Shown here piece after piece: positions 15,588-21,415 of a stretch of DNA of 22,541 nt. The position numbers were made by a program, and so were the translations under genes. A model generated the notes under the pieces. That model saw only the letters and a list, made by a program, of their open reading frames with translations. It searched no databases and was not told the origin of the DNA. The stretch is from positions 1-22,541 of the IMG/VR virus record IMGVR_UViG_3300006919_000504. One strand, 5' to 3'. The DNA is from a virus. Numbering within the stretch: position 1 is the first letter of the stretch; every line of letters begins with the position of its first letter.

Positions 15588-15671
15588 ATGACCGCTTGGT
15601 TCAAAACCCTAAGCCCTATCCGAGATATATGGGGAAGAAAAAAGGCAAGAAACCCAAGTCTAAAAGAATGA
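15588..15671 (+). CDS. Possible 27-residue leader ORF before the glycosyltransferase
   Basis: This tiny ORF starts at an ATG that has a TTATCTA box 27 nt upstream (15561) and ends in an ATGA overlap with the ATG at 15668. The peptide is basic (IRDIWGRKKARNPSLKE). It may exist to couple translation to the glycosyltransferase. The alternative is that the longer TTG or ATG-15632 start of the glycosyltransferase is used and this ORF is noise. Confidence 0.35.
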   Translation: MTAWFKTLSPIRDIWGRKKARNPSLKE

Positions 15672-16960
15672 GAATACTATGGTGTTCTGAACAGCCCACT
15701 CGTCCAACTGGATATGGTGTAGTTACTAGAGAAATAATCAAGCGGCTAGTCAAGAGAGGACATGAAGTATATGTTATGGGGTGGGATTACAACGGTGAAG
15801 ATTTCAAACATACAGAAGGATGGACGCTCGTCCACGCAGGTATAGGTGAGTATGGGGGTGAAGTAGTCAACCAAGCGGGAGACACCGTTCTAGGGGCTAC
15901 AATAGACCGATTACAGCCAGACGTGGTGCTTTCTCTGATTGACCCTTGGTTCATTGGTAAAAATGTATTATCCACAAATAATAGAGGCGTGCCATATGTT
16001 GCTTACATGCCCGTTGATGGCTACCCACTTTCATACAAATGGAAAGACATTCTCAAATTGCTACATACCCCTCTTTGGATGGCCGAGTATGGTCGAGAAC
16101 AATTCGAGTCTTACATTAATTGGTTGAGTACAGAAGGTTCTGCTCCCGAATCTTTGAGAGACCCGATGTTAGACCGTTATATTGACAACTACGGAGACGT
16201 ATTGTATCATGGTGTTGACTTGAAGAAGTTCAAGCCAGTGAGTATGTCTGACAAACTTTTGATGAGACAACAAATGAATGTGCCTTGGGAGTTTGTATTT
16301 CTCTCCGTAGGTAAGAACACAAACCGGAAGCAGCAACCCAGAATGTTAGAGTCGTTCAAACTCATGCTTGACAAACATCCGAATCCATCTTCAGTTGGTA
16401 TGATTATTCACTGTGGTAGTCCGACTGATGCTTATGGCATGGGTGGTTGGGATTTACCTTTGCTTGTCGAGCAAATGGGACTTCGACAACACGTTATTTT
16501 TTCTGACCAGTCTGAGAACCCATTACAGGGATTATCGAGCGACCAGATGGCCGCATTGTACCAAATGTGCGACGTTCATATGTTGGCAACAGGCGGTGAA
16601 GGATTTGGTATTCCATCAGCCGAAGCAATGGCTTGTGGTTTACCATGTATCTTACCAGACAATTCAACAGGTCCAGAATTAATTGGCGACAATGAACGGG
16701 GAATCTTAGTACCATGTTCGACATTCATAACAGGTCCAAAGTGGGGCGTGAACATGGGATTAGTAGATGTTGTCAAACAAGCACAAGCAATGTTGGACTT
16801 ATCATTAGATAAGGAACTCCGTAATACTATGGGTAAGAACGCCAGAGAGTTTGCTGAAAAGAAGTTTGACTGGAATCAAATAACAACTCAAGTGGAACAG
16901 ATATTAAGAGAAGCATCTGAAACTCCACACCCATTAGGGAATAACTCATTGATAGGTTGA
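15668..16960 (+). CDS. GT4-family glycosyltransferase
   Basis: This protein has 430 residues from the ATG at 15668. The frame runs up to a TTG at 15596 and an ATG at 15632, but the extra residues are only a Lys-rich tail. The start MRILWCSEQ, followed by TGYGVVTREII, is the standard first strand and glycine loop of the family. It is a GT-B enzyme that transfers a sugar from a nucleotide donor. The donor-site block has E-x7-E (E311 and E319 in GEGFGIPSAEAMACGLP), and VFLSVGKNTNRKQQPRMLES marks the second domain. Only soluble features are seen. It may glycosylate virion proteins or host surface layers. The next gene starts 4 nt later. Confidence 0.9.
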   Translation: MRILWCSEQPTRPTGYGVVTREIIKRLVKRGHEVYVMGWDYNGEDFKHTEGWTLVHAGIGEYGGEVVNQAGDTVLGATIDRLQPDVVLSLIDPWFIGKNVLSTNNRGVPYVAYMPVDGYPLSYKWKDILKLLHTPLWMAEYGREQFESYINWLSTEGSAPESLRDPMLDRYIDNYGDVLYHGVDLKKFKPVSMSDKLLMRQQMNVPWEFVFLSVGKNTNRKQQPRMLESFKLMLDKHPNPSSVGMIIHCGSPTDAYGMGGWDLPLLVEQMGLRQHVIFSDQSENPLQGLSSDQMAALYQMCDVHMLATGGEGFGIPSAEAMACGLPCILPDNSTGPELIGDNERGILVPCSTFITGPKWGVNMGLVDVVKQAQAMLDLSLDKELRNTMGKNAREFAEKKFDWNQITTQVEQILREASETPHPLGNNSLIG

Positions 16961-17797: not shown

Positions 17798-18235
17798 ATG
17801 GCATTACATTCATTCACAGGTGTAACTGGTTCAATCAGAACTTCCGGTACTACAACCGGAGCATTAGTGGGGTATGTGCAGGGAGACTTCACATTGGCCG
17901 CTGCTACTGGAAAATATGTTGAACTAGGGTCATCTTATGCAACTGCGAACACAAGAGGACTGAAATCAGCAAGCGGGTCATTATCCGCCGCATGGGGAAT
18001 AAAATCTTCAGAATTACATGACATGTTAACCAATGACGAAGAGTTTGAGATTAGATTTGCAGCAGCCGGAACACAGGCAGTGGGAACAACATCTGGAACT
18101 AAAGTTTTCACATTAAGCAACTGCGTATTTACTGACCTAGCAACAGAAGGTCTTGAAGCAGGTGGAGAAGGACCATTATTACTCAATGCTTCATTTGAAG
18201 CGTTAACTTGGTCGTACACTGCGGCTGACAGTTGA
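17798..18235 (+). CDS. Major tail tube protein
   Basis: This protein has 145 residues and is rich in Gly, Ala, Ser and Thr, with alternating strands (GSIRTSGTTTGALVGYVQGD, KYVELGSSYATANTRG, SASGSLSAAWGIKSSEL, EFEIRFAAAGTQ, TKVFTLSNCVFTDLA, LLLNASFEALTWSY). This is the profile of siphovirus tube proteins, which stack as hexameric rings. Position fits: directly before the two chaperone frames and tape measure, as in lambda-like tails. No recognisable signature motif, so the call is from composition and gene order. Confidence 0.75.
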   Translation: MALHSFTGVTGSIRTSGTTTGALVGYVQGDFTLAAATGKYVELGSSYATANTRGLKSASGSLSAAWGIKSSELHDMLTNDEEFEIRFAAAGTQAVGTTSGTKVFTLSNCVFTDLATEGLEAGGEGPLLLNASFEALTWSYTAADS

Positions 18236-18249
18236 GACGGTGATTAAAC

Positions 18250-18567
18250 ATGACATGGATAGATAATATAATTGAACAGGCTTCAGAACCGATAATAGTG
18301 GTTGTAAAACATTTGAACATAGGAGTGGATGAGATAAAGTGTCTCCCCCTATCTGTAAAAGAATACAACGGCTTGAAACAGAACCCAGAACTAACAGGAC
18401 TGAGTGAAGAAGACAGAGCAGAAAGACTTGGAATGCTCATGGTTTTTGAAATGATGCTAAAGTGCGACAAAGAACTCACATGGGATAGTTTTCAAAGGAT
18501 GCCCTTAACAACCATAGGACAACTAACAACTGCAATAATGGGAGCAGTTAACGTCCCTTTAGAATAA
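18250..18567 (+). CDS. Tail assembly chaperone, short form (gpG-like)
   Basis: This protein has 105 residues. It is a soluble protein (VKEYNGLKQNPELTGLSEED, RLGMLMVFEMMLKCDKELTW, TTIGQLTTAIMGAVNVPLE) placed between tail tube and tape measure, where lambda gpG and its relatives lie. The gene ends a few codons after a CCCTTTA slippery heptamer, just as in systems where a -1 shift adds a second domain. The product is expected to bind the tape measure protein and guide tube assembly. Confidence 0.8.
   Translation: MTWIDNIIEQASEPIIVVVKHLNIGVDEIKCLPLSVKEYNGLKQNPELTGLSEEDRAERLGMLMVFEMMLKCDKELTWDSFQRMPLTTIGQLTTAIMGAVNVPLE
18555..18561 (+). promoter_or_regulatory. Slippery heptamer CCCTTTA for -1 frameshifting
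   Basis: The zero frame reads GTC CCT TTA GAA TAA; the heptamer fits X XXY YYZ exactly (C CCT TTA). A -1 slip opens the frame CCC TTT AGA ATA ATC, which is free of stops to 18771. It lies two codons before the zero-frame stop. Confidence 0.8.
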
Positions 18568-18773
18568 TCGAAGAGTATGCCGAGTCTGATGAAGGTCAAT
18601 TCCTCTTCGCCCTCTTAGCACATCTCGGCATGAGTATAATAGAGTGGAAAGAATTAGACCCTAGAGAGGCTCATTTCCTTATAACCGCCTTCTCTGTAAA
18701 GAACCGTAAGGAGTCTGAACATAACCGTAAGGCTAGTCAAAGGGCTAGAGCGAATAGAATGGTGGGAAGATAA
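18561..18773 (+). CDS. Tail assembly chaperone, frameshifted extension (gpT-like part of gpGT)
   Basis: This is the second segment of the fusion: join 18250-18561 with 18561-18773, read after a -1 slip at CCCTTTA. The fusion has 174 residues, the last 70 from this frame (RIIEEYAESDEGQFLFALLA, IIEWKELDPREAHFLI, then a basic KNRKESEHNRKASQRARANR end). The segment has no upstream start of its own; an ATG at 18630 would give only 47 residues. Stop and tape measure start overlap as TAATG. The added domain is thought to recruit tube protein during assembly in related phages. Confidence 0.8.
   Translation, partial: RIIEEYAESDEGQFLFALLAHLGMSIIEWKELDPREAHFLITAFSVKNRKESEHNRKASQRARANRMVGR
18569..18631 (+). 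promoter_or_regulatory. Candidate pseudoknot stimulating the frameshift
   Basis: Stem 1: CGAAGAG (18569-18575) with CTCTTCG (18603-18609), 7 bp. Stem 2: ATGCCGAG (18577-18584, inside the stem-1 loop) with CTCGGCAT (18624-18631), 8 bp. The first stem begins 7 nt after the slippery heptamer, in the usual range. Inter-stem loop of 18 nt is longer than typical. Confidence 0.6.
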
Positions 18774-21415
18774 TGGCAGAAGTAACAACCATTATGACAA
18801 GGGTTACGGCTGATACCACATCCTTTCGTAAGAACATGTCTGCTGTAGGTAGGTCTCTACTAGCAGCAGGTGGAAAAGTATCTCGTTTGGGTACGGTGAT
18901 GAATGCTAATTTCAAAGCAATCGCTCTTTCAGCCAGTGCCGTCGGTGCATCTCTGACAGCAGGGTTTCTCAAACAATCTTCTGAACTATTCATTGAGTTT
19001 AACGATACGCTAGTCCGTACACAAGCGGTTATGCAATCGACAGGCGAAGAAGCCATGACGCTTGAGAATACAATCAGAGACATAGGTAAGTCAACAAGAT
19101 TTACTGCGTCTCAAGCAGCACAGGCAGCCGAGGTTCTGGCTATTGCAGGTGTTTCATTTAATGAGATGGTTGATGATGAAGTTATTGACAAGTTAGTGAA
19201 GTTCGCTATCGCAGGTGGTGTCGATATTCAGACTGCTACTACAATTGGTGTAGCGTCGGTTAAGGCGTTCCGTATGGAGATGGGACAATTGAACGAAGCA
19301 ACTGACGTTCTTGTTAAGACATTTACAAGTGCAAACGTGGATGTAGTCGGTCTTGGAGAAGCAATGAAGTTCGTTGCTCCTGTTGCAGCAGCGGCAGGTA
19401 TTGGAATTGAAGAAACAGCAGCGGCTATCGGTGCGTTAGGTAATGCAGGTCTACGTGGTACAGTGGCAGGTACAGGTCTGCGTATGTCCATCAATAAATT
19501 ATTGAAACCAACTTTCGATGCTAGAAAAGTTATCAATGACTTGAACTTAGAAGTATTCGTTTTATCTGATGCAGGTAAGACTGCAAATGCATCATTGAAA
19601 GCCACTATGAACCAAATGGATGTAACAGCACGTATTACATCCCGTCTAACTATGGAAGTCAATAACTTACAAGGCGAGTTAGATGATTTGGCTATGGCTG
19701 AGAGAAAGAATCAACTCTCCATCTCAGAGATTAGATTTAGAGCGGCGCAACAACAAAGAGAGTTGAATCAATCTGAAATAGACCAAATCCGAAGGTTAGA
19801 AATGGCTAATGAAGAACTTAGTATAACATCTCAAAAGAGAACAATAGAGTTGATGGAAACATCCGATGCTATGAAGAAAGCCGAAGAAAGACAATCATCA
19901 TTGAAGAAACGGTCTGATGAACTAATCAAAACAGTTGAGATGCAAACTATGGGTCTGACTTCATTGACGGACTTACTTCATCAGATGCGTGATGGTAATA
20001 TTACTGCGGCTCAAGCACTGGAGATATTCGGTGTTCGTGGTGGTACGGCTGTTCTTTCATTGATGTCTCAAGTAGATGCTTTCGATGAACTTGTAGCAGC
20101 AAACAGAACTGCGGCAGGTACAACAGAACAATTCTCTACCACACTACAACAATCATCTTTTGAAGCATTGCGTGTTTTCAAATCACAGATTGAAGAAGCG
20201 TCAATTACTCTCGGTGTTCATTTCGTCCGGGCTTTATTCGATGTCGAATATCAAGGACAGAAAACTACGGGTGTCCTTAGCGACTTCGGTAAGACGTTGA
20301 ACGAACCGGGTGGTGTAGTTGAACAATTGACACCGCAGATAATTGCATTAGCAAATACTCTGAAAACAAATCTACCTGCTGCAATCGACGTTTTAGTCGC
20401 TACTGTACCTTTGTTCGTAGAAGTCTTGTCGGCAATAGCAAGAATACTACCTGCACTAGCATTGTTGGGTCGAATATTAACGGCTATTGTGACTCCATTA
20501 GTAAGACTGTTTGGTATGTTCATGGATGTGATTGATGCGGTTCTTACATTCGACGGTTCACTAAAGGGGTTAGTGAAAATATTTAGTACACTTATTACTT
20601 TCGTATTGGAAGCAATAGTTATATTCTCTGGGGTTGGATGGGTCTTGAGGTCTCTCGGCGTTTTCTTTGAAGGAACTAATGAAAAAGCGTCTAAGTTTTT
20701 CCACACTCTAGCCGACTTTGCAGGGTTGGCAAAGGGTGGAGCAAAACTATTCATGATGTTGGGTAAAAGGTTGCCCGGTCTAGGACGTTTGTTCAAAGGT
20801 GCAAGTAGTGGAGCAGGTTCTTTCTTGAAGAGTCTTAAAATCTTAAAAGGCCCAATCAACACTATATCGAAGTTGGTTGCTAAATTGAAAAACTTACTCC
20901 AACAACTTGGCGGAGTCTTGAAGAATAATCGTTTTACAAAGTTCTTCGGCAAGGTGAGAAGTGCATTAACTGACAGTCGTTCTTCTGCTCAAATAGCAAA
21001 TAGTGTTGAAAAAACCAATCGAAGAAACTTAGCACATGCTATGGGGAATCAAGGCATGGGTGGAACAAAAGGATTGACACCCGACCAAGTGAACGCAGGG
21101 CTACGGGCTAGAGGTATTCCAGTAAAGGATATGCCTCTCTTCGCCGCAGGTGGTATTGTGTCAAAACCAACAATAGGTATGATAGGTGAAGGTGGAGATA
21201 GTGAAGCAGTTATTCCTTTGACAAATAGTAAACTAAAACAAATTGGAGTAGGTATCGCTGATGCAAGTGGTGGCATGGGTACTAACATCTCTATTGGCGA
21301 TATTGTGATTAACGGTGATGGGTTGAACAAGCATGAGATACAGGCTATGATTGAACGTGAACTACCAAAAATCATCAACCGTTCAATGAGACGGGGAGCA
21401 CAGGGGGTTATCTGA
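18773..21415 (+). CDS. Tail tape measure protein
   Basis: This protein has 880 residues. It sets tail length and is ejected at infection. The N-terminal part up to about residue 280 resembles the TP901/phage tail minor core (AQAAEVLAIAGVSFNEMVD, TSANVDVVGLGEAMKFVAPV, GALGNAGLRGTVAGTGLRMS). A charged coiled coil at about 286-393 is inserted before the core resumes with LTDLLHQMRDGNITAAQALE and IFGVRGGTAVLSLM. Hydrophobic helices follow at about 535-640 and a Lys-rich region to about 730. The C-terminus has the usual AAGGIVSKPTIGMIGEGGDS-EAVIPLTN motif. The start overlaps the chaperone stop (TAATG), and the stop overlaps the next start (TGATG). Confidence 0.93.
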   Translation: MAEVTTIMTRVTADTTSFRKNMSAVGRSLLAAGGKVSRLGTVMNANFKAIALSASAVGASLTAGFLKQSSELFIEFNDTLVRTQAVMQSTGEEAMTLENTIRDIGKSTRFTASQAAQAAEVLAIAGVSFNEMVDDEVIDKLVKFAIAGGVDIQTATTIGVASVKAFRMEMGQLNEATDVLVKTFTSANVDVVGLGEAMKFVAPVAAAAGIGIEETAAAIGALGNAGLRGTVAGTGLRMSINKLLKPTFDARKVINDLNLEVFVLSDAGKTANASLKATMNQMDVTARITSRLTMEVNNLQGELDDLAMAERKNQLSISEIRFRAAQQQRELNQSEIDQIRRLEMANEELSITSQKRTIELMETSDAMKKAEERQSSLKKRSDELIKTVEMQTMGLTSLTDLLHQMRDGNITAAQALEIFGVRGGTAVLSLMSQVDAFDELVAANRTAAGTTEQFSTTLQQSSFEALRVFKSQIEEASITLGVHFVRALFDVEYQGQKTTGVLSDFGKTLNEPGGVVEQLTPQIIALANTLKTNLPAAIDVLVATVPLFVEVLSAIARILPALALLGRILTAIVTPLVRLFGMFMDVIDAVLTFDGSLKGLVKIFSTLITFVLEAIVIFSGVGWVLRSLGVFFEGTNEKASKFFHTLADFAGLAKGGAKLFMMLGKRLPGLGRLFKGASSGAGSFLKSLKILKGPINTISKLVAKLKNLLQQLGGVLKNNRFTKFFGKVRSALTDSRSSAQIANSVEKTNRRNLAHAMGNQGMGGTKGLTPDQVNAGLRARGIPVKDMPLFAAGGIVSKPTIGMIGEGGDSEAVIPLTNSKLKQIGVGIADASGGMGTNISIGDIVINGDGLNKHEIQAMIERELPKIINRSMRRGAQGVI

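Follow-up and report, generated by a model that had tools for sequence, protein, structure and literature searches.

Interchangeable slippery sites at a probable −1 frameshift in the presumed tail assembly chaperone genes of a marine virus family with a probable archaeal host

That some tailed viruses of archaea join their tail assembly chaperone genes G and T by −1 frameshifting has already been published, and these viruses are among the closest described systems. Two papers (PMC5009743 and PMC8211752) report −1 G/GT frameshifts for HVTV-1, HCTV-1, HCTV-2 and HCTV-5, the shift sites of the three HCTV viruses being given in the first; for Hardycor1 a −1 G/GT shift at G GGA AAT is proposed (PMC7911831). 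For HSTV-2 (PMC5009743) and the HF1 group the shift described is +1. The 2021 review (PMC8211752) counts one −1 case in an archaeal cellular gene and treats those from viruses as apparent. The public records of HVTV-1, HCTV-1 and HCTV-2 annotate G/GT as joined genes, and our own scan placed their sites at GGGAAAG, GGGAAAC and AAAAAAC, respectively. A sequence-only reading of the locus described below had put it forward as a clear example of such recoding in archaea; as a first, the claim is forestalled by HVTV-1, HCTV-1, HCTV-2 and HCTV-5 and by the proposal for Hardycor1, and the family of the present virus joins a kind already known.

Organisation of the G/T locus

The stretch of DNA analysed here – the window, 22,541 bases of a virus record – carries the head–tail module of a tailed virus, with genes for terminase, portal, protease, capsid and tape measure; the tail genes and RNA features discussed below all lie on its + strand. 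A probable major tail (tube) protein (17798..18235), so assigned mainly from its position before G and the tape measure gene, has a weak PHROGs match (phrog_290, "minor tail protein", E 0.0024) and no match in Pfam. Two small overlapping genes then stand directly upstream of the tape measure gene. The first, G (18250..18567, the 0 frame, 105 aa, TAA stop at 18565-18567), keeps its length and frame in 11 of 11 close relatives. The second, T, is a −1 frame of about 70 codons (18552..18773, stop at 18771-18773) that would be reached only via a shift: it is open from 18552 to 18770, its opening lying three bases upstream of a putative shift site, the slippery heptamer C_CCU_UUA (18555..18561), and its stop overlaps the tape measure ATG (18773) as TAATG. 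The tape measure gene itself (18773..21415) matches PF10145 (E 1.5e-30) and TIGR01760 (E 4.1e-34). A direct check found heptamer, −1 frame and TAATG overlap exactly, to the base, where the sequence-only reading had put them. Between the capsid and tail genes there is also a glycosyltransferase (Pfam PF00534, window 15596-16960), and a relative (L037:5855-6772) carries a match to a TET-associated glycosyltransferase.

We are strongly persuaded that the two genes encode tail assembly chaperones of the lambda G/GT type and that GT arises by programmed −1 ribosomal frameshifting; comparison of sequences supports the frameshift with high confidence, which is less than a demonstration. Beneath this reading are the frames, the heptamer, the conservation of the −1 relation, the behaviour of T as a protein, synteny and a middling chaperone-like fold for G; slippage itself, its efficiency, and its stimulation by a first downstream stem (stem 1, below) or by a hairpin built on that stem, are what we infer. 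Most ribosomes would translate G (105 aa) and stop at 18565. In a minority the P-site tRNA on CCU and the A-site tRNA on UUA would slip back one base to CCC UUU, and these ribosomes would continue through T to give a fusion of about 174 aa, the predicted junction peptide of which contains AVNVPLRIIEEYAESDEGQF. By analogy with lambda, G would coat the tape measure protein while the T part of GT would recruit the tail tube protein.

The chaperone reading of G is likely, and draws jointly on fold, position and the −1 overlap. Family searches with the sequence of the window's G gave no trustworthy match, and Pfam matches among 29 representatives of G came to three at chance level, one member each. 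For the predicted structure of G (mean pLDDT 83.7), Foldseek returned no match at E 0.001 from viral structures or from the PDB; its best viral match was a tail assembly chaperone (probability 1.00, E 0.015), an annotation carried by 10 of the 50 viral matches listed. A structural second look at the PDB placed YqbN (3klu, Z 7.0) and the HK97 tail assembly chaperone (2ob9, Z 5.5) in the top two rows, with 92 residues aligned in each, followed by a PICI-element protein of unknown function (Z 5.0) and then by rows at Z 3.3. The modelled fold thus resembles tail assembly chaperones at middling scores (Z below 8), with sequence identities of only 11% to YqbN and 8% to the HK97 protein.

With the haloarchaeal viruses the window shares a −1 overlap of chaperone genes just upstream of, or near, the tape measure gene. 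It differs from them in its site, C_CCU_UUA, and part of its family uses G_GGG_GAA; neither type is among the published archaeal sites compared. Homology of G to the G proteins of HVTV-1 or HCTV-2 was sought by profile comparison and rejected, none being found, and tblastn with GT gave a weak match to three Halorubrum tailed virus records (E 0.9). In lambda the shift site is G_GGA_AAG, as against C_CCU_UUA in the window. The likeness to lambda gpG/gpGT, as portrayed in PMC5009743, is one of description and extends to gene order, −1 direction, a late site and a small chaperone with a rarer extended form. The same C_CCU_UUA heptamer has been proposed, with a pseudoknot, in giardiavirus – a dsRNA virus of a protozoan, some genomes of which carry that heptamer mutated (PMC8230311). 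Within the open-licence literature giardiavirus was the single case found of CCCUUUA as a frameshift site, and for frameshifting in Poseidoniales that literature yielded only work on fusion proteins in Archaea, both absences being weak evidence; the word "frameshift" does not occur in passages of a 2023 magrovirus survey (PMC10160649).

Shift sites and the T frame among relatives

Within the frame that begins at 18250 the heptamer CCCTTTA lies in phase 2 and is read C_CCT_TTA, followed by GAA and TAA (18565-18567), so that one sense codon stands between heptamer and G stop. Because the −1 frame is open only from 18552, any −1 shift is confined to about five codons, and the heptamer sits inside precisely this stretch. 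Across 12 of the window's other genes, 12 of 4751 positions carry an in-phase X_XXY_YYZ.

Relatives were sought by seven scans of viral contigs with GT or tape measure queries; fused GT queries favour contigs with both parts, and several of the patterns lay in G alone. The 46 contigs read at the junction, window included, represent 30 distinct junction sequences. Left out of the 46 were repeat loci of counted contigs and L132, which is without the junction, and further tape-measure matches stand outside the junction count: L020 (contig starts inside the gene), L027, L028 (32% identity). The T frame is −1 to G in all 46 contigs, with a slippery site beginning 7 or 10 nt ahead of the G stop: CCCTTTA in 13, GGGGGAA in 18, GGGAAAC in 7, GGGAAAG in 5 and GGGAAAA in 3. 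Strict X_XXY_YYZ sites are present in 28, while the 18 with GGGGGAA are non-strict. T is followed by the tape measure gene in 44 of the 46; the remaining two run out 101 and 346 nt past the G stop, and L011, the one with 346 nt, still matches the beginning of the tape measure protein.

Closest to the window are the contigs with GT identity of at least 58% (13, window included), in all of which CCCTTTA is identical and in phase, and in 12 of which the −1/0 overlap is only 13 nt. Among the 6 Pro and 18 Leu columns conserved in seven CCCTTTA representatives, the Pro and Leu codons of the heptamer are the sole ones invariant at the codon level. The programmed −1 frameshift that had been proposed for G/GT from the window alone is thus strongly supported by comparison across 46 of 46 contigs. 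Relatives that keep both frames and lose the heptamer, which could have told against it, turn out to have replaced it by other slippery sites. What appears to be new, as far as such comparisons go, is this series of interchangeable shift sites within one virus family.

T itself behaves as a protein. Its sequence is conserved, with shared residues aligned across 29 representatives, and over the stretch from the heptamer to the first ATG inside the window's T (18630) T-frame differences fall 78/30/138 at codon positions 1/2/3, counted pairwise among seven window-clade contigs, the pairs not being independent. Judged from this pattern, the T frame is under protein selection between heptamer and first internal ATG. 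T gave only weak matches to sequence families, of unknown function, and a Foldseek viral search with it gave no match at E 0.001 or better. These data bear directly on one rival, of negligible probability, in which the G/T split reflects faulty sequencing or the decay of a gene. A metagenomic virus record such as the window does leave room for sequencing error, but the split recurs at the same place in 46 of 46 contigs with differing slippery sequences, and the protein selection on T speaks against decay and error alike.

Another alternative is that T is made as a separate protein, by termination–reinitiation or from an internal start, with no GT fusion. An ATG or GTG does overlap or abut the G stop (as ATGA, GTGA or TAATG) in 11 of the 46 contigs, the window-clade contigs L012 and L056 included, and restart could therefore add T product in some relatives; the −1 ATG in G_GGG_GAA_TGA, however, comes automatically from GAATGA. 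In the window T holds no ATG, GTG or TTG before 18630, and the first 21 T codons counted from the G stop are free of all three in 17 of 46 contigs; the window and its ten nearest contigs are among these 17, and have none ahead of the codon that corresponds to 18630 or inside the tested stretch. Upstream of that codon lies the conserved start of T (EEYAESDEGQFLF), and the slippery site is retained in all 46 contigs, which again argues against restart. Restart does not explain the window, and as an account that dispenses with GT we regard it as very improbable.

RNA structure downstream of the shift sites

If the frameshift is real, its stimulator in the window's clade might be a pseudoknot, as the sequence-only reading had proposed; we think this unlikely. 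The pairings of both stems are present in the sequence. Stem 1 (18569-18575 with 18603-18609, CGAAGAG/CTCTTCG) and stem 2 (18577-18584 with 18624-18631, ATGCCGAG/CTCGGCAT) are perfect in the window at the coordinates first proposed, the former beginning after a 7-nt spacer, within the 5-9 nt expected of interleaved stems that stimulate a −1 shift. Interleaved stems of 7+8 bp, counted where the first of them began 4-10 nt past the heptamer, arose in 0.6% of 5000 synonymous-codon shuffles and in 0 of 5000 dinucleotide shuffles, though the 0.6% is only mild evidence since the stems were chosen after seeing the sequence; a first stem of at least 7 bp alone arose in 20% of synonymous and 2.7% of dinucleotide shuffles. 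Stem 1 is also perfect and invariant in the window and its ten nearest contigs.

Several observations weigh on the other side. Compact H-type frameshift pseudoknots typically have no long gap between their stems, whereas 18 nt (18585-18602) separate the 5′ arm of stem 2 from the 3′ arm of stem 1; the arrangement is therefore not a compact H-type knot. A nested hairpin competes with it, in which an inner helix (18582-18585 and 18587-18590 with 18595-18602) is stacked on stem 1. This nested, bulged hairpin is the minimum-energy fold of a 60-nt stretch in the window, L002, L008, L010 and L011; it is not so in L007 or L009, and its energy in the window is unremarkable, 0.63 and 0.72 of synonymous shuffles reaching one as low. 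Stem 1 is lost in L012, and L056 keeps six of its seven pairs, two as G-U. Stem 2 is broken in L007, L012 and L056 and loses an end pair in L009; imperfect in four of seven distinct rows, it is unlikely to be conserved as an element. Across 7 distinct rows none of the 15 pairs had changed in both of its bases, and the covariation score over these rows lies under the mean of the shuffles, 488 of 500 of which score as high. The rows that retain the stems resemble each other closely, which gives the covariation test low power and leaves the pseudoknot unproven rather than excluded. As a conserved element, then, it is unsupported: compensatory change is absent, stem 2 is imperfect in relatives, and L012 has a different hairpin. 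That hairpin, a perfect 7-bp GTCCGAG/CTCGGAC (L012:5320-5341), also starts 7 nt after the heptamer, both window stems being lost.

Codon conservation over stem 1 is borderline: its T codons are invariant in 10 of 12 cases, against 56 of 101 elsewhere (Fisher p 0.057); a version with p 0.005 spans the heptamer, upstream codons and a stretch chosen after inspection, and so is not evidence for stem 1.

Relatives with other sites differ in what follows the site. In the G_GGG_GAA clade a hairpin lies 6 nt after the site, its six outer pairs kept in all 11 representatives (10 distinct). L059:4330-4374 exemplifies the arrangement, with G_GGG_GAA immediately ahead of the G stop and a CCCTCG/CGAGGG hairpin downstream; the ten others are L057, L058, L060, L064, L065, L067, L068, L101, L107 and L109, the last with one C to U change. 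An inner pair is U-A for C-G in two of the 10 distinct rows, at synonymous sites. This one both-sided pair makes covariation in the hairpin suggestive only, since 38 of 500 shuffles reach the score and 288 of 500 the pair number. Codons of site and hairpin are constant in 5 of 6 cases against 6 of 43 (p 0.001), in eight GGGGGAA representatives and for a stretch chosen after inspection. Folding at or below 0.05 against synonymous shuffles was seen at 7 of 11 GGGGGAA junctions (36-nt window), at 3 of 7 CCCTTTA junctions (L008, L009 and L010, in one window or the other) and at 2 of 12 GGGAAAN junctions in either of two windows (L113 and L127), counts that are uncorrected for two windows and 30 sequences; most GGGAAAN junctions have nothing unusual in structure. 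Rfam gave no match at gathering scores. A single stimulator conserved family-wide was considered and rejected: the window lacks the GGGGGAA-clade hairpin, and GGGAAAN junctions mostly fold no more stably than expected.

A joint reading of sites and structures can be offered, tentatively and at somewhat less than even confidence. At one homologous place the shift signal would be interchangeable – C_CCU_UUA, G_GGA_AAC/G/A, or G_GGG_GAA immediately ahead of the stop. Those that one would expect to be weaker or non-canonical, clearly so for G_GGG_GAA and to a lesser degree for C_CCU_UUA, would tend to carry a downstream helix, and G_GGA_AAN would mostly do without; site strength may in this way be traded against structure to hold one frameshift ratio on archaeal ribosomes.

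Host and significance

The sequence-only reading had taken the virus for a probable archaeal one. An archaeal host is indeed probable, and we hold it with good confidence from an archaeal-type replication factor C (RFC) in relatives; a direct host link was sought and none was found. The window is itself a fragment, and the RFC small subunit is the only archaeal-type replication gene seen, in relatives. Its family is matched in 7 of 11 relatives' contigs (E 3e-76 to 2e-90), with none over the curated cut-off and with bacterial control genomes also matching at a loose threshold. One of the seven, G003, is near-identical to the window (GT 98%, tape measure 100% identical), and its RFC small subunit is 96% identical to that of G004. 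By profile the RFC protein is far nearer archaeal RFC (6e-70) than bacterial gamma/tau (4e-9) or T4 gp44 (2e-6), and it prefers the RFC small subunit model (3e-84) over dnaX (2e-29).

Were the virus to infect bacteria, the locus would say nothing on archaeal recoding. We consider this improbable, though it has evidence of its own. Listed matches of terminase, portal and tape measure are bacterial phages at 23-34% identity, save one virus named for a rodent sample, with two Haloarcula records beside the phages in the terminase tally, and the three capsid matches are bacterial phages as well. No RFC match was seen in G002, which is no more distant from the window than G003. MCM was found over cut-off in 0 of 11 contigs, with one match below it; PCNA (PCNA_N) and TFB were found in none of 11 contigs of a set that overlaps the first in part, and the contigs may be incomplete. 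PolB, helicase, primase-like and VWA/AAA genes are present in G004 and G005 and are not diagnostic alone. The best NCBIfam models of the helicase are YoaA and DinG. Of the 568 records matched by G004 PolB, 313 are Synechococcus phages, yet the best 15 of the 568, ranked on the product of query cover and identity, all come from haloarchaeal viruses. Two short-pattern scans of bacterial and archaeal genome contigs found no relatives; such scans are insensitive, their patterns being short and the RFC scan having missed even cellular RFC genes. With the RFC profiles and the best PolB records set against these points, we retain the archaeal host. Membership of the order Magrovirales is possible; Aoguangviridae of that order, viruses of Poseidoniales, encode MCM and PCNA (PMC10768690).

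Other genes of the relatives deserve mention. A CobT-like VWA protein lies near a CbbQ/CobS-like AAA ATPase in pieces of 82.8 and 80.7 kb contigs (L032:4295-8772, and L036:16467-18764 with L037:799-2004), and in HVTV-1, too, a VWA protein is annotated close to an AAA ATPase. Probable tail fibres are encoded at L029:4400-10379 and L038:2003-4639, as long proteins that combine collagen repeats with a carbohydrate-binding module (CBM_5_12).

For a group of marine virus contigs, the GT fusion would be the better gene model. Very few instances of programmed frameshifting by archaeal ribosomes have been demonstrated. Within one gene, the window's family varies the shift site naturally: five sequences occupy a single homologous position, some followed by a helix and some not. 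Such a set would allow direct comparison of site strength and stimulator in an archaeal system.
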